A stretch of DNA of 64,000 nt from the NCBI RefSeq assembly GCF_030182585.1, contig NZ_JARXOW010000001.1, positions 1 to 64,000 on the forward strand, written 5' to 3'. A program made the position numbers and the translations under genes. The notes beneath the pieces are model-generated. The model searched no databases and was not told the DNA's origin. It saw only the letters and a program-made list of their open reading frames with translations. Every line of letters begins with the position of its first letter. The stretch's first letter is position 1. Positions 16,421 to 25,184 of the stretch are shown piece by piece. The DNA comes from Pedobacter faecalis. Lineage in GTDB: Bacteria; Bacteroidota; Bacteroidia; Sphingobacteriales; Sphingobacteriaceae.

Positions 16421-18967
16421 ATGGAGCACATCACCACGCCGATTTTTCAAGCGCTCTTTCAATCAGACGTGCCGCGGATCATTCTTCGGGCAAACTCGCC
16501 CGAGTTTACGATACTTGATTATAACAGTGCACATATGCAGGCTACGGGTATAGGTGCTGGCTCCGACCATCGAGGCAAAAGCCTGTGGCAAGTTTACGAT
16601 CCGGTGATCGCAGGTGAGAATGGCCCGGAACTGGTAAGCCTGGCCTTAAACCAGGCGATAGACCACAATACACAGGTGCATATGCCCGTTTTCCGATACG
16701 ACATGCGCAACGAAGCAGGCGAAGTAGTGCCGAGCTGGTGGCAGCTAGAGATATTGCCGGTGAAAAAGAATTCTGACGATGTGGAATATCTGCTGATCAC
16801 AACGCAGAATGTTACTCAGGCGATTCGCGCCGAACACCGGGAGCAGGAACTTACTGAGGAGCTTGCTGCTTCTAACGAAGAGCTTGCTGCAGCAAATGAA
16901 GAACTGACAGCTACAGTTGAGGATTTGAAGGAAGCGCATGATGAGCTTGAAAAGCTTAACGCGGAGCTTGAGGCTAAGATTGAGGCTCGTGTCCGGGATC
17001 TGGCTAGAAGTGAGACCAGTTTGCGTAGCCTGGTGATGACTGCGCATTATCCGCTGATGATACTCAGAGGCCGCGAGTGGGTTATAGAAATTGTTAATCA
17101 ACCTCTTGTAAACTTGTGGGACCGATCGATAGAGGAGGTTACAGGCCGGCAGCTGATGGAGATACTCCCGGAGCTTGAGGCGCAGCCGTTTCCAGGCTAT
17201 TTACGACAGGTCTATGAAACCGGTATAGGATACGGGCAGGAGGAGCAGATATTTTACTACAATTCACCCTCAGGTCCGGCCGAAAAGTATGTCAGTTTTT
17301 ATTATGATCCGCTAAGAGATGACCAAGGCAATGTATGCGGTATTATCGTGGCGGCCGATGACATTACAGCGAAGGTTCAGCAGCGCCAGCTGCTCGAGGC
17401 CAGTTTGGAAAATGAGCAGGTGCTGACAGAGCAACTCAACGCTATTAATGAGGAGCTTACTGCCGCGGTAGAAGATCTTTCTGCCTCCAACGAGGATCTC
17501 ATTCGTTCGCAACATGATTTACAGGACAAGCATCAGGCACTCACTGAAAGTGAAGCACGGTTCAGGAGTTTAATCCGTCAGGCCCCGATTGGAATATGTG
17601 TGCTCCGGGCGAGTGATTTGATGGTGCAGGAGGTTAATGATGGTTATCTTGAACTGGTAGGCAAGGACAGGGCTGAACTGGAAAACCGTACGATTTGGGA
17701 GGCCGTATCAGAAGCGGCCGAAAGCTATGCGCCGGTTATGGACCATGTTATTCGTACAGGGCAGCCGTTTGTTGCCAAGGAGCATGAGGTTGTCCTTATC
17801 AAGCATGGTATACCTCAAACGGTCTTTATCGATTTTGTATATGAACCTGTGGTAAACCAGGGTCAGATCAATACGATTATGGTTGTGGCCATTGATGTGA
17901 CGGAGCAGGTTAAAGGAAGACGGTCCATCGAAGACGTTGAAGAACGCATCAGGCTTGCGGTGGACGCTGCTGAGATTGGTACTTTTGAACATAATTATCT
18001 GACCAATGCCTTGCTCACATCAGAGCGCTTCGACGCTATATTTGGTTTTCCTAAGCCGTCTTCGCGCCTTGATCTTCTTCCGTTGTTTCATCCCGACGAC
18101 GTTCATTTGAGTAAGCAGGCTCACATTAGGGCGGCGCGCGATGGTCACATGTTTTACGAGGCACGGTTAATCGCCAAGGATCAGTCGATTCGCTGGATCA
18201 GGGTTCAGGCTAAGGTTTACTTTCAGTCGAACGGAATACCTGAAAAGCTGTTGGGTACGGTTTTGGATATCACCGACTTTAAGAAATTGCAACAGCAGAA
18301 AGACGACTTTATTTCCATTGCCAGCCACGAACTTAAGACGCCGATCACAGCGCTTAAAGCTTCTCTTCAGTTAATGCAGCGATTGAAGGATAATCCATCC
18401 GCAGCTATTTTGCCAAGGCTGATTGATCAGGCCGGCAGGAGCATGGATAAGATCAGTGCGCTGATTGACGACTTGCTCAACGTAAGCCGGATGAATGAAG
18501 GTTCTATGCGGTTGAATAAGACTACCTTCCTTTTGAAGAAGTTACTTGACGAATGCTGCGGGCATGTGCGTGTAAGTGGCACTCACGAGCTCATCTTTGA
18601 GGGCGACGAAGAACTGGAAGTGTATGCGGATGAGCACAGGATAGATCAGGTGGTTGTAAATTTTGTAAACAACGCGGTTAAGTATGCACCTGACTCGAGA
18701 TATATTTACCTGATTGCGGAAAGGGTTGGCAATACCGCTAGGGTGGCGGTACGGGATAACGGGCCAGGCATTTCGGCCGACAAGCTTCCGCATTTGTTTG
18801 AACGCTATTACCGCGCAGATGAGTCTGGTTATCAGGTGTCCGGACTCGGTTTAGGCTTGTACATCAGTGCGGATATTATCCAGCGTCATGGGGGCGAAAT
18901 TGGTGTGGACAGCAAGCTCGGGGCAGGATCAACTTTTTGGTTTACACTTCCCATTGGGCTGGACTAA
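16421..18967 (+). CDS. Multi-PAS sensor histidine kinase
   Basis: An 848-residue kinase without clear transmembrane segments, so probably cytoplasmic. PAS-like domains lie at about 10-135, 205-325, 385-505 and 515-625. Two long coiled coils rich in the E-E-L-A-A-S-N-E-E-L type repeat (about 138-200 and 330-380) separate the first three. The HisKA domain carries the phosphoacceptor His636 in S-H-E-L-K-T-P, followed by a HATPase with N-N-A-V-K-Y-A, D-N-G-P-G-I and G-L-G-L-G-L-Y. It ends in a kinase core with no receiver. It lies just before the stressosome operon, which has its own promoter. Confidence 0.92.
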   Translation: MEHITTPIFQALFQSDVPRIILRANSPEFTILDYNSAHMQATGIGAGSDHRGKSLWQVYDPVIAGENGPELVSLALNQAIDHNTQVHMPVFRYDMRNEAGEVVPSWWQLEILPVKKNSDDVEYLLITTQNVTQAIRAEHREQELTEELAASNEELAAANEELTATVEDLKEAHDELEKLNAELEAKIEARVRDLARSETSLRSLVMTAHYPLMILRGREWVIEIVNQPLVNLWDRSIEEVTGRQLMEILPELEAQPFPGYLRQVYETGIGYGQEEQIFYYNSPSGPAEKYVSFYYDPLRDDQGNVCGIIVAADDITAKVQQRQLLEASLENEQVLTEQLNAINEELTAAVEDLSASNEDLIRSQHDLQDKHQALTESEARFRSLIRQAPIGICVLRASDLMVQEVNDGYLELVGKDRAELENRTIWEAVSEAAESYAPVMDHVIRTGQPFVAKEHEVVLIKHGIPQTVFIDFVYEPVVNQGQINTIMVVAIDVTEQVKGRRSIEDVEERIRLAVDAAEIGTFEHNYLTNALLTSERFDAIFGFPKPSSRLDLLPLFHPDDVHLSKQAHIRAARDGHMFYEARLIAKDQSIRWIRVQAKVYFQSNGIPEKLLGTVLDITDFKKLQQQKDDFISIASHELKTPITALKASLQLMQRLKDNPSAAILPRLIDQAGRSMDKISALIDDLLNVSRMNEGSMRLNKTTFLLKKLLDECCGHVRVSGTHELIFEGDEELEVYADEHRIDQVVVNFVNNAVKYAPDSRYIYLIAERVGNTARVAVRDNGPGISADKLPHLFERYYRADESGYQVSGLGLGLYISADIIQRHGGEIGVDSKLGAGSTFWFTLPIGLD

Positions 18968-19070: not shown

Positions 19071-19934
19071 ATGAAACAAAATACGTCGGCTCTTCTGAAA
19101 AAGAAAAGCGCTCAGATCATGGAAAAGTGGATGACAAATCAACTGGCTGATGCCGGGCTGCGCGATGATCTGATCAGTAACGAAGACCTGAGGGAACAGT
19201 CTGAAGAACTGCTTACTTCGTTGCTGAACAATATCAGTAGTGAAAATATTGTCAACCCGGAATCCGGCGATTTTGATCAGCTGATTGAGATCCTTTCCGG
19301 CGTATCGATCTCCCGGGCAAGACAAGGGTTTTCCCCAAGGGAAACCGGGATGTATGTACTTAGTCTGAAACAAGCTTTGGTTGAACTCCTGGAAAAGGAA
19401 ATAAAAGACGATCCTGCTTTGCTTTATGCTGAAGTGACAAAGATCGGTAAGTTGTTCGACTACTTCAGCATGCTTACCTTCGAAACTTTTATTAAGGGAA
19501 GGGAAGATGTAATTCTGCGTCAGACCGACGAAATCACGGAGATTTCCACTCCGGTTATACAGGTTTGGGACGGCATTCTTGCCTTACCTATTATAGGCAC
19601 CCTGGATAGCTCACGAACGCAAATCGTGATGGAAAGTCTGCTTGAAAATATTGTTCAGACGGAAAGTACCATCGCCATCCTGGATATATCAGGAGTTCCG
19701 GCTGTTGATTCGCTGGTAGCCCAGCATTTAATGAAAACTGTGGCAGCAACAAGGCTCATGGGCGCCGAATGCGTTATTAGCGGTATCAGACCGGAAATAG
19801 CGCAAACCATTGTGCATCTGGGGATAGACCTGTCAGGTATCATCACCAAGGCATCGTTGGCGAGTGCACTTAAGTATGCTTTTCAGGTATTAAAGCTTGA
19901 AGTCCGGAAACAAGTAGTGAAAGTAAATCAGTAA
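19071..19934 (+). CDS. rsbR: RsbR-type stressosome scaffold/sensor protein
   Basis: A 287-residue protein with an N-terminal RsbRD_N domain (about 8-145, beginning A-L-L-K-K-K-S-A-Q-I-M-E-K-W) and a C-terminal STAS domain (about 155-275). With RsbS it should form the stressosome core; the N-domain would be the sensory turret. Residues matching the two kinase target sites of B. subtilis RsbRA are Ser214 in V-D-S and Thr246 in I-A-Q-T, judged by position. First gene of a tightly packed operon, 6 nt before rsbS. Confidence 0.88.
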   Translation: MKQNTSALLKKKSAQIMEKWMTNQLADAGLRDDLISNEDLREQSEELLTSLLNNISSENIVNPESGDFDQLIEILSGVSISRARQGFSPRETGMYVLSLKQALVELLEKEIKDDPALLYAEVTKIGKLFDYFSMLTFETFIKGREDVILRQTDEITEISTPVIQVWDGILALPIIGTLDSSRTQIVMESLLENIVQTESTIAILDISGVPAVDSLVAQHLMKTVAATRLMGAECVISGIRPEIAQTIVHLGIDLSGIITKASLASALKYAFQVLKLEVRKQVVKVNQ

Positions 19935-19940
19935 GTTTTT

Positions 19941-20351
19941 ATGGAGAAAATTCCTATTTTAAAAATGGGACCCTTTCTGCTTGTGACTATACAAGTAGAT
20001 CTTTATGATCGTTTAGCGCTGAACCTGGAATCGGATCTTATTCAGACCATTAACAAGACCGGCGCTCAGGGGGTCTTAATCGACATATCTGCCGTGTCGA
20101 TCGTAGATTCCTTTATGGGCAGGATTATTGGTAATATCGCCAGCATGTCTAAGATACTCGACGCGCATACCGTTGTAGTAGGGATGCAGCCCGCCGTTGC
20201 CATTACACTTATTGAGTTGGGATTGCCGCTAACAGGTGTGCATACGGCACTAAATGTGGAGCGGGGCATGGAGTTTTTGAGGTCAAAAATAGTGGTAGAT
20301 CAGGAAGATATTGATGAAGAACTAAACAACGATGATAATCTCGCTCTCTAA
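19941..20351 (+). CDS. rsbS: RsbS-type stressosome scaffold (STAS)
   Basis: A 136-residue single STAS-domain protein. Typical RsbS segments are I-P-I-L-K-M-G near the N-terminus, I-D-I-S-A-V-S-I-V-D-S with Ser57 at the position phosphorylated by RsbT in B. subtilis, and G-M-Q-P-A-V-A-I-T-L-I-E-L-G (81-94). It would hold RsbT in the complex until phosphorylated. The last 15 residues are an acidic extension rich in D and E. The gene overlaps rsbT by 20 nt. Confidence 0.9.
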   Translation: MEKIPILKMGPFLLVTIQVDLYDRLALNLESDLIQTINKTGAQGVLIDISAVSIVDSFMGRIIGNIASMSKILDAHTVVVGMQPAVAITLIELGLPLTGVHTALNVERGMEFLRSKIVVDQEDIDEELNNDDNLAL

Positions 20352-20745
20352 GCAGCAGATGCGGATTGAAAGAGATCACGATGTGGTGCCTTTTAGAAAC
20401 AGAGTTAAGGAGTGTGCTGTAAAGATCAGGATGGGCCTGGTTAATCAGACCAAGCTGATCACTGCTGCAAGTGAACTTGTCAGGAACATGTTGAAATATG
20501 GCGGAGGAGGCGAGACATTAATTGAAGTGGTAAGCCGGGGCAGGGATACTGGCGTTCGGCTGACATTTTTAGATCATGGTCCGGGAATTCAGGATATAGC
20601 CCAGGCCATGAAAGATGGCTTCTCGACTGGGAAAAGTCTCGGTTTAGGTTTGCCTGGCGCCAGGCGGCTGGTAAATGAGTTTGACATTAAAAGTGAGTGG
20701 GGTAAGGGAACGACAGTTGTTATAACAAAGTGGGCGAATGGTTAG
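20332..20745 (+). CDS. rsbT: RsbT-type switch kinase
   Basis: A 137-residue GHKL ATPase/kinase. The N-box A-S-E-L-V-R-N-M-L-K-Y-G-G-G-G (about 45-59), D-H-G-P-G-I near 82-87 and G-L-G-L-P-G-A-R-R-L are all present, so it should be active. In B. subtilis RsbT phosphorylates RsbR and RsbS and then leaves to activate the phosphatase RsbU; no RsbU is encoded here, so the partner must differ. It overlaps rsbS by 20 nt and the next gene by 8 nt, indicating coupled translation. Confidence 0.92.
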   Translation: MIISLSKQQMRIERDHDVVPFRNRVKECAVKIRMGLVNQTKLITAASELVRNMLKYGGGGETLIEVVSRGRDTGVRLTFLDHGPGIQDIAQAMKDGFSTGKSLGLGLPGARRLVNEFDIKSEWGKGTTVVITKWANG

Positions 20746-21751
20746 TGGCGTTTATAAGAGCTTTGATGCTAACGACAGAAGTTATTTTGCGATCATCAAA
20801 AAGGAAATACATAAATTGGTTGCTGAGGCCGGCTTCCCTGAACAAAAAGTAGCGCATACGGATATCATTGTTGGAGAAACCACCTCTAACCTGATGAAGC
20901 ACGCTTTAGGGGGCGAAATTCTTGTCGCTTTAAAGGGGGAGGGTAGTGAGTCCTATCTGGAAATCGTCAGCATAGATAGTGGTCCTGGAATAAAAGACGT
21001 GGATCGCATGATGGAAGACGGCGTATCCACCTCCAGCACCATGGGGCACGGATTAGGAAGTATACGGCGATTGTCTGATTTTTTTGATGCTTATTCGTTA
21101 CAGGGATGGGGCACGATTCTTCTAATCAGGATCTTCAAAGACAAGCCGCTTAAAAACAGCATGAGTAGTGCTTTAGGGGCACTTATTGTACCAAAGAAAG
21201 GTGAGGAAGTAAGTGGAGACGGGCTGATCGTGGCCAGGAACAAAAATCATGTGAAATTAATGCTTATGGACGGGCTGGGCCATGGCGCCGATGCAAACGC
21301 GGTGATTAAAGAGGCGGCTAAAGCCTTTAATAATTGCCTTACCGACGACCCTGTTGCAACGGTCAGATATATCCACAGCTATATCAGGAAGACCCGCGGG
21401 GGGGTGGGTACCGTATTGTTATATAATCTAAAAGATGCCTCCTGGGAGGCTGCAGGTGCAGGAAACATCATGGGCAAGCTGTTCGGACACGCCTCAAGTA
21501 AAAACCTCGTACCGTATAACGGAATTATCGGGCATAATATACCTGCTACAATGAATGTTCAACGATATAGCGGTAGTGATTTTCCTCTGGTCATTTTATG
21601 TTCAGATGGAATTAAGTCCAGATGGGATATCTCCAGGTATGTCGGTGTTCAGCGTCATGATCCGGTGATACTTGCTACGGCCATCTATAAAGATTATGGG
21701 CGGCAAACGGATGATATGTCGGTAATAGTTGCTAAATTGAATACTTTATGA
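20738..21751 (+). CDS. RsbX-like PP2C phosphatase fused to an RsbT-like ATPase domain
   Basis: A 337-residue two-domain protein. The N-terminal half (about 1-135) is an RsbT/SpoIIAB-like GHKL module with G-E-T-T-S-N-L-M-K-H-A, D-S-G-P-G-I and G-H-G-L-G-S-I-R-R-L. The C-terminal half (about 145-337) is a SpoIIE/RsbX-type PP2C phosphatase with M-D-G-L-G-H-G-A-D-A, C-S-D-G-I and T-D-D-M-S-V-I-V. By family, RsbX removes phosphates from RsbR and RsbS and resets the stressosome; that role here is inferred. It overlaps the next gene by 4 nt (ATGA). Confidence 0.88.
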   Translation: MVSGVYKSFDANDRSYFAIIKKEIHKLVAEAGFPEQKVAHTDIIVGETTSNLMKHALGGEILVALKGEGSESYLEIVSIDSGPGIKDVDRMMEDGVSTSSTMGHGLGSIRRLSDFFDAYSLQGWGTILLIRIFKDKPLKNSMSSALGALIVPKKGEEVSGDGLIVARNKNHVKLMLMDGLGHGADANAVIKEAAKAFNNCLTDDPVATVRYIHSYIRKTRGGVGTVLLYNLKDASWEAAGAGNIMGKLFGHASSKNLVPYNGIIGHNIPATMNVQRYSGSDFPLVILCSDGIKSRWDISRYVGVQRHDPVILATAIYKDYGRQTDDMSVIVAKLNTL

Positions 21752-22938
21752 ACTCAATTCTGGAGATAACACTGGAAAACGAAATGGATGTCATGCTTGC
21801 ACATCAGAAAATGATGCGCGCTGCGGAGATAATTGGATTGAGTATTACTACTAAGACCACTTTTGTTACTGCACTCTCTGAGCTAAGCCGTGTATTAATT
21901 GAGCACACGGATAAAGGCCTGCTTTCTGTTGCTGTGGCAAGCGATAATGCAAGGCATAAGTTGAATGCATTGCTCACTTATCCTGTTGCCGACGGACTGA
22001 TCGACGAGCGTCTCTTCTATTATGCCAAGAAGCTGGTGCCTGTGTTAGATTTCACTAGCACCGCAGAGAGCTACGCCATAAATTTCAGTATCGGATTGCC
22101 AAGATCTGCCGCTTTCGGGGCTGAAGTCCTGAGGCGCGTACGGTCTGAAGTGCGCGACAAGATTATCTCACCGTATGAGGGGATTAAAAGTAAAAATGCT
22201 GAGCTTTCGCGTCTTACCGAAATGCAGGAAGAGCAGTTGCGATACTCAAAACGTCTTAACGAATTAAAAAGCGAATTCCTGTCGGTTGCCAGCCACGAAA
22301 TCAAAACTCCGCTGACGGTGTTACATGGCTATGTTCAGATGGCCGCAAAAAAAGAAACACTTGAGGAGACACGAAAGATTATTACGAAAATAGAACAGCA
22401 GCTTAAAAAACTCAATCACCTCTCCGTAAAGCTCCTTGATTCTGCCAAGACAGACAGCGGTAAGCTGGAATATGATAAGCAGCCTATGATGGTTAATGCT
22501 GTTTTGGAACGCCTCTTTGCAGACCTTGTATTGATTACTTCAAGCCATGAACTCGAAATGTCCGTGTGCGATGATGTTCAACTTTTCATAGATCCTGTTC
22601 GCATAGAGCAGGTTATAAGCAATATGGTATCTAACGCGGCAAAGTATTCGGCTCCCGGAAGCAGGATTAATATCAGTAGCAGCCTGAACGACAATGCTGA
22701 ATTGGTTATTTCTGTTAAGGACGAAGGTTTTGGAATGAACAGTGAAAGTGTGTCAAGAGTATTTGAAAAATTTTATAGGGATAAAGGTGTAGCCAGTTCC
22801 TATTCGGGCTTAGGGATGGGAATGTACATTGCTAACGAGATCGTATCCGAACATGGTGGCAGGATCTGGGTGGAAAGTGAAGCTGGCAAAGGTTCAACAT
22901 TTCATTTCTCTATACCCCGCGCGGAAGGTGCAGCTTAA
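21748..22938 (+). CDS. Histidine kinase with RsbT-like N-terminal module, last gene of the stressosome operon
   Basis: A 396-residue cytoplasmic histidine kinase. Residues about 1-120 resemble an RsbT-type fold with a degenerate N-box (T-A-L-S-E-L-S-R-V-L-I-E-H), but lack the ATP-lid glycines. A helical linker (about 130-175) leads to HisKA with His183 in S-H-E-I-K-T-P-L, then HATPase with N-A-A-K-Y-S, D-E-G-F-G-M and G-L-G-M-G-M-Y. Coupled by ATGA overlap to the phosphatase gene, it is the likely output of the stressosome. Its response regulator is not adjacent; 24822-25184 is a candidate. Confidence 0.88.
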   Translation: MNSILEITLENEMDVMLAHQKMMRAAEIIGLSITTKTTFVTALSELSRVLIEHTDKGLLSVAVASDNARHKLNALLTYPVADGLIDERLFYYAKKLVPVLDFTSTAESYAINFSIGLPRSAAFGAEVLRRVRSEVRDKIISPYEGIKSKNAELSRLTEMQEEQLRYSKRLNELKSEFLSVASHEIKTPLTVLHGYVQMAAKKETLEETRKIITKIEQQLKKLNHLSVKLLDSAKTDSGKLEYDKQPMMVNAVLERLFADLVLITSSHELEMSVCDDVQLFIDPVRIEQVISNMVSNAAKYSAPGSRINISSSLNDNAELVISVKDEGFGMNSESVSRVFEKFYRDKGVASSYSGLGMGMYIANEIVSEHGGRIWVESEAGKGSTFHFSIPRAEGAA

Positions 22939-24051: not shown

Positions 24052-24243
24052 ATGAAAAATACGAAAGGTAATTTGCAGAACCAGGACGACGTAAATCCTA
24101 CGACTCAGCTCGACAAGATTTTAGTAGAGGGAAGTGATGAAGCCGTGGATACCAACGGTACCGGGTCTAACCGGCCGGTGCCAACTTCAGACTCAGTGGT
24201 CATTAAACATGAATCATCAGATGACGACCATGATAAGGACTGA
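24052..24243 (+). CDS. Small acidic hydrophilic protein (63 aa)
   Basis: A 63-residue, probably disordered protein rich in D, N, T and S, ending in an acidic tail (S-S-D-D-D-H-D-K-D). No family is recognised. It starts with a good ATG after an AT-rich leader. It ends inside the upstream extension of the DUF4268 frame, and I take both as possible neighbours in one transcript. Function unknown; small proteins of this sort commonly sit in stress regions of Sphingobacteriaceae, which is only a contextual remark. Confidence 0.5.
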   Translation: MKNTKGNLQNQDDVNPTTQLDKILVEGSDEAVDTNGTGSNRPVPTSDSVVIKHESSDDDHDKD

Positions 24244-24745
24244 CAAAAAAAAAGCTAACTTTACAGACAAAAAAGATAACAGGTTGTATTCAAAGAGCGA
24301 GGCATCACAGCTTAGACACGAATTCTGGACTACTTTCGGTCAATACATCTCGCCCCATCCTTCGGCAGATGGAATGCGGATAAACTGGGTAAATTATAAG
24401 ACCGGCATTAAGCATCTTCAGTTCAAGATGCAGGCCGACAACCGATCGGCCTCCATCGCTATAGAGATTTCCAATCCGGACCCAGGCATTCAGGAACTTG
24501 TTTTTGAACAATTTAGCGAATTAAAAAAAGTCCTGCATGAACAACTTGGAGAAGAATGGGAATGGAATAAGTTTGTAGCCGATGAATATGGTAAAACTAT
24601 TTGCCGTATTGAGCGTTCCTTAAGTGGTGTACGGATATTCAGGAAAGAAGACTGGCCTACACTCATATCATTTTTCAAACCAAGGATTATCGCGCTCGAC
24701 GAATTCTGGAGTGTGGCGCAATTCAGCTTTGAGATGTTTAAGTAA
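24221..24745 (+). CDS. DUF4268 domain-containing protein
   Basis: A roughly 174-residue protein whose body, from L-Y-S-K-S-E-A-S-Q-L-R-H-E-F-W-T-T-F-G-Q-Y to the end, matches the DUF4268 pattern, a nuclease-fold-like domain of unknown role. The start is uncertain: ATGs at 24221 and 24230 overlap the preceding ORF, while family members usually begin at the Y-S-K-E-E-A-S segment, where this gene has a TTG at 24284. A run of nine A (24245-24253) lies between these choices. No signal peptide. Confidence 0.75.
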   Translation: MTTMIRTDKKKANFTDKKDNRLYSKSEASQLRHEFWTTFGQYISPHPSADGMRINWVNYKTGIKHLQFKMQADNRSASIAIEISNPDPGIQELVFEQFSELKKVLHEQLGEEWEWNKFVADEYGKTICRIERSLSGVRIFRKEDWPTLISFFKPRIIALDEFWSVAQFSFEMFK

Positions 24746-24821: not shown

Positions 24822-25184
24822 ATGATAAAAAGAATACATGTGCTTGAAGATGATGAGGATATCAGATACATAATCGGCGTCTTGCTAAAAGACGAAGGTT
24901 ATGAATTGCAATTGTCGTCTTCTTTTACAGAGCTAAAGAGCAAATTAAGAGATTCAGTACCTGATCTGTTCATTCTGGATGTAATGATACCTGACGGTGA
25001 CGGTACCGATATTTGTACTGATCTGAAGAGCGATCCCTTCACCAGACATATCCCGATTATCGTCATGTCGGCGAACGACCAGAATAAGCAGAAAAGTCTT
25101 GAAGCAGGCGCCAATGATTATATCAGCAAGCCTTTCGACATAGATTACATCGTGAAGCGTATCAACGCTCAGCTCAACCGTTAA
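24822..25184 (+). CDS. Single-domain response regulator (CheY-like)
   Basis: A 120-residue receiver domain without output domain. The acidic pocket is E9-D10-D11, the phosphoacceptor Asp53 in F-I-L-D-V-M-I-P-D-G, the switch Ser83 in V-M-S-A-N and Lys103 in S-K-P-F-D. All residues for phosphorylation are intact. It may receive phosphate from the stressosome-linked or the PAS kinase nearby; this is inference from position. A strong terminator follows 23 nt after the stop. Confidence 0.93.
   Translation: MIKRIHVLEDDEDIRYIIGVLLKDEGYELQLSSSFTELKSKLRDSVPDLFILDVMIPDGDGTDICTDLKSDPFTRHIPIIVMSANDQNKQKSLEAGANDYISKPFDIDYIVKRINAQLNR

Follow-up and report, generated by a model that had tools for sequence, protein, structure and literature searches.

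The first 64,000 nucleotides of contig NZ_JARXOW010000001.1 of Pedobacter faecalis, here called the window, carry on the plus strand (19071-22938) a stressosome operon in which rsbR, rsbS, rsbT, a phosphatase gene and a histidine kinase gene follow one another as five open reading frames (ORFs) that overlap or are closely spaced. An earlier note on this DNA had rightly seen the kinase as the last gene of the operon and had overlooked that it is not merely a neighbour of the stressosome genes: its N-terminal domain, referred to below as T*, is, judging from its sequence, a degenerate relative of the switch kinase RsbT, and with such a domain on the kinase the mechanism is likely to differ from the one that the note had in mind. 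On balance we favour a stressosome that works independently of sigma-B, in which this pseudo-RsbT domain either docks the kinase on the RsbR/RsbS core or lets the core gate it, and the kinase hands the signal on to a receiver. The data below show the domains and their shared ancestry, the loss of the ATP-site motifs and the conservation of the five genes; the docking, the gating and the direction of gating are predictions set beside them.

The kinase (396 aa) has the DHp domain with an H-box and the HATPase_c domain that characterise sensor histidine kinases. HisKA (the DHp domain) lies at 22267-22461 (Pfam, 6.2e-14), with the H-box ASHEIKTP and H183 as its presumed phosphoacceptor, and the HATPase_c catalytic domain at 22591-22923 (Pfam, 1.4e-28). 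In front of both, T* takes up 21748-22107 (kinase residues 1 to ~120) and is joined to HisKA by a linker (22108-22266, residues ~121-173) that by eye is probably helical. Pfam has no match to T* in the window, and in the 12 family members examined it gives no credible hit of either the RsbT or the RsbU_N type. The relationship appears when T* is compared with RsbT itself. Residues 6-65 of the window kinase align with RsbT in a pairwise BLASTP (8e-6), and a profile-profile comparison gives a probability of 92 and an E value of 6.6e-7 over 101 columns. A profile built from 18 rows of RsbT, with all kinases left out (E values for 3,000 sequences), matches isolated T* in 80/80 relatives at E<1e-3 and in 78 at E<1e-5 (median 1.6e-10), and none of 1,680 control sequences, shuffled or reversed, reaches E<1e-3 (best 0.03); the RsbT profile also matches SpoIIAB chains (SpoIIAB at 3.5e-14 with the RsbT alignment). 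These relatives are the best 80 of 191 loci confirmed by a scan of named genomes with patterns of the kinase N-domain, and T* is hence present in all of them by construction, which does not hold for the other genes. A database search with T* yielded 3 proteins among 902 candidates, compared with the 191 loci of the genome scan, a difference that we blame on the word filter. The kinases of the relatives, L142 left out, show the H-box pattern in 69/79 cases and the G2 pattern in 75/79, the mismatches not having been inspected. Sequence comparison thus establishes that the N-terminal domain of the kinase shares its descent with the RsbT family.

What T* has lost is the nucleotide site. In a joint alignment of RsbT (87), the RsbT-like domains of the phosphatase, henceforth TX (77), intact RsbT domains fused to kinases (25) and the degenerate kinase domains (80), the Mg-binding Asn of the N-box is present in 87/87 RsbT, 77/77 TX and 25/25 intact fusions and in 7/80 T*; in the window its place is taken by Val49 (21892-21894), with E45 and R48 kept. 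The D/G/G columns of the G1 box are gaps in 80/80 T*, an aligned DxGxG is found in 0/80, and the first 170 aa of the 80 kinases hold no GxGx[GA] string. DxGxG-like strings do occur within this stretch in three relatives (L094, L105 and L133), where they do not align with G1. Other positions have hardly changed: the N-box Glu, taken as the catalytic base, is kept in 79/80, and 80/80 keep the Arg that precedes the Asn position as well as Met13 and Asp14 close to the N-terminus; the N-terminal half is the best-kept part of the domain. The seven domains that keep the Asn (L120, L122, L127, L130, L132, L136 and L142) look like intermediates of decay. In one of these, a Chitinophaga record, the kinase reads as two open frames (L142:5998-7615), perhaps through a frameshift or an assembly error. 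With the descent of an RsbT/SpoIIAB kinase and without its ATP site (Asn, DxGxG and G2), T* is best classed by its residues as a degenerate RsbT relative, and not as an RsbT kinase.

The gene before the kinase encodes a second enzyme with an RsbT-type domain. The N-terminal part (20738-21142) of TX (337 aa) matches HATPase_c_2 over residues 19-130 (2e-7), is 38% identical to RsbT over 84 aa (BLASTP) and retains the ATP-site motifs. Its C-terminal part (21143-21751) is of the RsbX/SpoIIE type of PP2C phosphatases: the Pfam SpoIIE match (21245-21739; 5.9e-5) reaches 23.5 bits against a cut-off of 25, and 25.5 bits when the neighbours in frame are included, and the PP2C pattern D-G/A-x-G-H/N-G is found in the TX of 77/77 relatives. 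The phosphatase is accordingly, on these domain matches, a fusion of an RsbT-like domain to an RsbX-type PP2C domain. The description 'RsbX-like' in the earlier note suits the PP2C part; TX is not a plain, single-domain RsbX, since the RsbT-like domain is fused in front.

The first three genes form an ordinary RsbRST module, with a sensor and STAS protein, a STAS-only protein and a HATPase adjacent to one another. RsbR (287 aa; 19071-19934) has an RsbRD_N sensor domain at residues 7-108 (19089-19394; PF14361, 4.8e-26) and a STAS domain at residues 161-254 (19551-19832; PF01740, 6e-14). RsbS (136 aa; 19941-20351) is a single STAS domain (PF01740, 6.2e-7) and is 78-80% identical to the RsbS of four loci of the same genus. 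RsbT (137 aa; 20332-20745) possesses what a switch kinase requires, namely an N-box with E48, R51 and N52, a G1 box with D81, G83 and G85, and a G2 box with G104 and G106. Candidate phosphosites are S57 of RsbS and, by analogy with RsbR of B. subtilis and Listeria, S180 and S214 of RsbR, and these serines are the predicted phosphoacceptors of the core. Both RsbR STAS patterns are present in the window and in 74/75 and 75/75 relatives, and the RsbS Ser motif, judged by pattern, is present in the window and in 72/76 relatives (4 without a match). Along the operon the Pfam domains run RsbRD_N and STAS; STAS; HATPase_c; HATPase_c_2 and SpoIIE (the latter below cut-off); HisKA and HATPase_c. The coordinates bear out the gene order and tight junctions described before: a 6-nt gap separates RsbR (end 19934) from RsbS (start 19941), RsbS and RsbT overlap at 20332-20351, RsbT and TX at 20738-20745, and the phosphatase and the kinase share an ATGA at 21748-21751.

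This arrangement is widely kept. All five genes are found in order on one strand at 75/80 loci, which cover Pedobacter, Mucilaginibacter, Chitinophaga, Flavisolibacter, Spirosoma, Larkinella, Flavobacterium and others, and the overlap between the RsbT and TX genes is 8 nt at 67/75. Contig ends truncate three of the incomplete loci (L085, L090 and L127). Of the other two, L134 shows no TX in its 1.3 kb of upstream sequence, and at L120 the profiles find no RST genes in 6 kb upstream. The recurrence of the five genes in order, a check that the earlier note had itself proposed and that has turned out in its favour, confirms an operon rather than a chance arrangement. The nearest named record, Pedobacter deserti (L067), is 98% identical over the kinase N-domain. 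Closer to the window the system is sporadic within the genus: T* occurs in 5/59 relatives, all of the window's genus and with its own genome included, and the same five have RsbT. The other four loci of the genus have R-S-T-TX-kinase in order, in flanks unlike those of the window. In a survey of the class (395 genomes) the N-domain was found in nine genomes (E<=1e-6) and RsbT in ten (E<=1e-20), all nine being among the ten (Fisher 1.7e-17); the E limits of these surveys differ, and they are taken as one draw of 395 genomes since the listed genomes agree. In one of these nine genomes, G684 (locus L177), the domain is of the intact type. The tenth RsbT genome (L176) reads R-S-T-X-kinase-receiver, with a plain X and a kinase N-terminus that is weakly RsbT-like (E 2e-4).

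Bacteroidota place two kinds of kinase beside rsbT. Among 395 genomes examined across the phylum, 19 had an RsbT-profile match; eight of these, the window included, combine TX with a degenerate kinase domain and one combines TX with an intact domain, while seven (L056-L058 and L060-L063) have a kinase with an N-terminal RsbU_N and no TX, and three have no RST locus by profiles. The RsbU_N match holds for 7/7 of these kinases and lies above the Pfam cut-off in 6/7. A plain RsbX accompanies five of the seven; at L062 and L063 the profiles found RsbT alone beside the kinase, with no RsbR, RsbS or phosphatase. The presence of TX is associated with the type of kinase (9/0 versus 0/7, Fisher 8.7e-5), also when L062 and L063 are omitted (9/0 versus 0/5, p about 5e-4 by hand), the locus L176 of the class survey being a partial exception. 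At the surveyed loci the kinase thus carries either the receptor of RsbT (RsbU_N) or a relative of RsbT. The family of the window belongs to the latter: the RsbU_N profile (PF08673) matches 0/12 T* domains and nothing in the window's own genome.

Elsewhere the five genes stand in the same order and the kinase-borne RsbT domain, in the same position, is intact. Such R-S-T-TX-kinase clusters are found in Deinococcus radiodurans MP1 (L159), Deinococcus sp. KNUC1210 (L158) and Sphingomonas aliaeris (L160), and Paraburkholderia sp. D15 (L163) has the same order with a domain that is intact by eye and an rsbR annotated as two pieces. They come from six plasmid regions inspected, of 107 and 103 matching plasmid records in two scans; in addition, the D. 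psychrotolerans plasmid record starts at the kinase, and the fifth gene of the Phaeobacter inhibens DSM 17395 region encodes an RsbT-like N-terminus followed by a remainder that the kinase-core profile does not match. The D. radiodurans locus (NC_000958.1 25219-31023) contains a second receiver-kinase besides the five genes; its annotation names no more than STAS, anti-sigma and ATP-binding proteins. Within the Bacteroidota, the more distant locus L059 reads R-S-T-TX-kinase-kinase with the intact domain on the second kinase. There and at L177 a double-receiver histidine kinase stands between TX and the kinase with the intact RsbT domain (L059:5187-6779 and L177:4220-5851), which suggests a two-kinase output in some Bacteroidota. 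A protein search with the intact domain of L059 listed 20 proteins, all with HATPase_c_2, HisKA and HATPase_c, of which two are labelled Blastocatellia or Desulfobacterales; such intact fusions are detectable by Pfam (PF13581), unlike the degenerate T*.

A tree of 112 rows, made by a quick method with a midpoint root from 23 of the 80 loci and further loci, places the TX domains in one group (99) and 25 degenerate kinase domains in another (100). The degenerate group shares a branch (99) with 11/25 intact kinase domains, and L059 with one near-copy joins this branch weakly (68). Four RsbT rows from loci of the RsbU_N type group with TX. Apparently a GHKL serine kinase has been turning into a pseudokinase adaptor, some forms of which keep the Asn without the glycine boxes.

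The mechanism that we favour would involve three client enzymes, each with an RsbT-type domain: free RsbT, the RsbT-RsbX resetting phosphatase, and the pseudo-RsbT-histidine kinase as output. The STAS core of RsbR and RsbS would hold the kinase by its pseudo-RsbT domain at the docking sites of RsbT. Upon stress RsbT would phosphorylate RsbS (S57) and RsbR (S180/S214), and the phosphorylated core would free or reorient the pseudo-RsbT domain, whose movement would be relayed through the linker to the HisKA dimer and alter autophosphorylation. Phosphate would then go to a receiver protein, and TX, docked by its own RsbT domain, would reset the core. Docking work in Listeria proposes that RsbT is able to bind each STAS domain on the functional face of the core (PMC9237128). 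RsbT activates RsbU via the N-terminal domain and linker of RsbU, and it has been suggested that histidine kinases could take the place of RsbU in this layout (PMC12143880). For Vibrio, deletion of RSTX and deletion of the downstream kinase are described as having similar phenotypes (PMC10014275), which we count in favour.

On the output side, a small receiver gene directly follows the kinase (gap below 200 nt, several overlapping) at 17/80 loci, the orphan L120 included. Within 2.5 kb and on the same strand, receivers lie downstream of the kinase at 20/80 loci, against five upstream of rsbR (75 loci); long open frames at L133, L086 and L089 that score as the same receivers were not counted. 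The phosphorelay output put forward in the earlier note has thereby become somewhat likelier, tempered by the majority of loci, which have no receiver directly after the kinase. The window itself encodes a single-domain receiver on the plus strand (24822-25184; Response_reg, 8e-24), a candidate phosphoacceptor, and a DUF4268 protein (24134-24745) lies between it and the operon. The absence of RsbU, RsbV, RsbW and sigma-B, also claimed before, holds within the operon. Genome-wide (genome 96% complete) no RsbU_N was found, the B. subtilis control being positive, and the SigB/F/G profiles gave 18 matches with none over the cut-off. A full sigma-B pathway of RsbU, RsbV, RsbW and SigB was not found, and a STAS and HATPase pair exists elsewhere in the genome. 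This pair belongs to a second partner-switching set about 230 kb from the operon (G000:C1, about 252.7-255.2 kb; L156:3673-6206; minus strand), where a receiver-PP2C protein, a STAS protein, a HATPase-like protein and a small protein with, by eye, a membrane-like stretch are encoded in a row.

A number of observations weigh against docking of the kinase as the route of output. No counted receiver gene lies on the kinase strand within 2.5 kb downstream at 60/80 loci, and the receiver of the window, considered as the cognate regulator, scores like other receivers (92.5 bits), bears no more than a generic likeness to those encoded right after the kinase elsewhere, and stays a candidate. For two of the 80 kinases (L120 and L134) the profiles detect no RST genes in the available upstream sequence. 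The position aligned to SpoIIAB residue 20, which we take to be a partner contact, is H/Y in 77/80 T* and R/K in 85/87 RsbT, so the surface of T* is partly changed and not identical to that of RsbT. As to ancestry, the 25 intact kinase domains do not form one group in the tree, 12 being nearer to RsbT and TX by a weak split (68); the stem of the degenerate group is long (1.88) and 49/109 inner branches are open in this quick tree, which leaves the exact parent of T* uncertain. Finally, for V. vulnificus PMC9237108 reports no positive interaction between RsbT and the downstream kinase VvD1, whose N-terminus lay outside this analysis.

The strongest rival, which we hold to be rather unlikely, has T* pair either with RsbT or with the RsbT-like domain carried by TX, such that released RsbT activates the kinase and T* replaces RsbU_N. 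Binding of RsbT to an N-terminal domain and linker is the known RsbU route and has been suggested for RsbU_N kinases (PMC12143880), and the seven TX-less loci of the phylum survey do have an RsbU_N kinase beside rsbT (7/7 proteins, 6/7 over the cut-off); the well-kept N-terminal half of T* would also suit a pairing face. T* is nevertheless related to RsbT and not to the receptor RsbU_N, which it fails to match in 12/12 family members. RsbT acts as a monomer, and a ready-made pairing face is therefore not to be expected. Alternatively, the kinase might be a phosphorylation substrate of RsbT, with T* a mere recognition module or a remnant. We regard this as improbable: what PMC9237108 says on modules without RsbU_N counts in its favour, but certain Glu, Arg, Met and Asp positions hardly vary across Sphingobacteriaceae, Chitinophagaceae, Flavobacteriaceae and Spirosoma/Larkinella, which speaks against a mere remnant. 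Slightly less probable still is that the main output is the distant receiver-PP2C/STAS/HATPase set, activated by free RsbT. Such a set is present in the same genome at about 253 kb; its phosphatase, however, starts receiver-like by eye, no RsbU_N was found in the genome, and the set is unlinked, whereas the kinase gene overlaps that of TX and the gene order is conserved. That T* is an unrelated sensor domain with a chance resemblance to RsbT would agree with the missing Pfam matches (12/12) and with the T* profile finding no relative among solved structures in the PDB (best E 0.2, equal to chance), a null result that also counts against docking, but is largely refuted by the 80/80 matches versus 0/1,680 controls, the intact counterparts that share the position and the gene order, and the grouping in the tree.

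An 848-aa multi-PAS histidine kinase is encoded just upstream of rsbR on the same strand (16421-18967), outside the conserved unit; it was considered as a part of the system and set aside, as no ortholog flanks the unit in four relatives of the same genus, of which only L019 shows flanking sequence that weakly matches kinase, receiver and dehydrogenase families. A Bacteroidota-type promoter before rsbR is not claimed: the pattern TTG-N17-23-TAnnTTTG, which we presume to be the consensus of the phylum, occurs at 2/75 loci, equal to shuffled sequence (2.2%), with a match starting 51 nt upstream in L067, the near-identical relative of the window. Elsewhere in the genome, a lone 131-aa STAS protein (G000:C1:155549-155944; L157:3050-3445) is encoded between SAICAR synthetase-like and ribonuclease Z-like genes, both named by eye.

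In its overall design the operon resembles the RsbRST(X) modules of Bacillus, Listeria and Vibrio, where a single operon likewise encodes RsbR, RsbS, RsbT and a phosphatase of the RsbX type and the STAS core has candidate Ser sites, and like the Vibrio type it lacks sigma-B (PMC9237108). It differs from them in that the phosphatase has its own RsbT-like domain and the kinase a degenerate one, and in having no RsbU, RsbV or RsbW in the operon. Histidine kinases with RsbU_N encoded after RSTX have been described for Proteobacteria (Heinz et al. 2022, PMC9237108; PMC12143880). The window kinase likewise stands beside RST genes with an N-terminal domain that could couple to the stressosome, but carries a relative of RsbT where they carry its receptor. 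Closest are the intact RsbT-domain kinases (PF13581, HisKA and HATPase_c; DR_RS15590 in D. radiodurans MP1), which share the R-S-T-TX-kinase order and the position of the domain and keep the ATP-site motifs that the window family has lost. SpoIIAB, RsbW and RsbT itself are GHKL serine kinases, the family to which RsbT belongs; T* differs from them in having no nucleotide-site motifs and in being fused to a histidine kinase. Among the open-access matches listed, the titles and abstract openings appear to describe no RsbT-like domain on a histidine kinase, and the reviews by Pane-Farre et al. (2005, 2017) may mention related architectures.

It seems to us an evenly balanced proposition that the RsbT fold serves as a reusable stressosome docking tag for kinase, phosphatase and output kinase alike, the copy on the histidine kinase having become, in a large group of Bacteroidota, a pseudokinase kept only for docking and gating. 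If true, this would be a third readout of the stressosome, beside the binding of RsbU_N by RsbT and the phosphorylation of a client by RsbT. The degenerate type has been seen in Sphingobacteriaceae, Chitinophagaceae, Flavobacteriaceae and Spirosoma/Larkinella, and an intact version in Deinococcus radiodurans. In one survey of proteins downstream of stressosomes, no RsbU_N was detected for the majority (PMC9237108). For the question of how stressosomes signal in bacteria that lack sigma-B, a kinase with its own degenerate RsbT domain offers a concrete physical link that can be tested.

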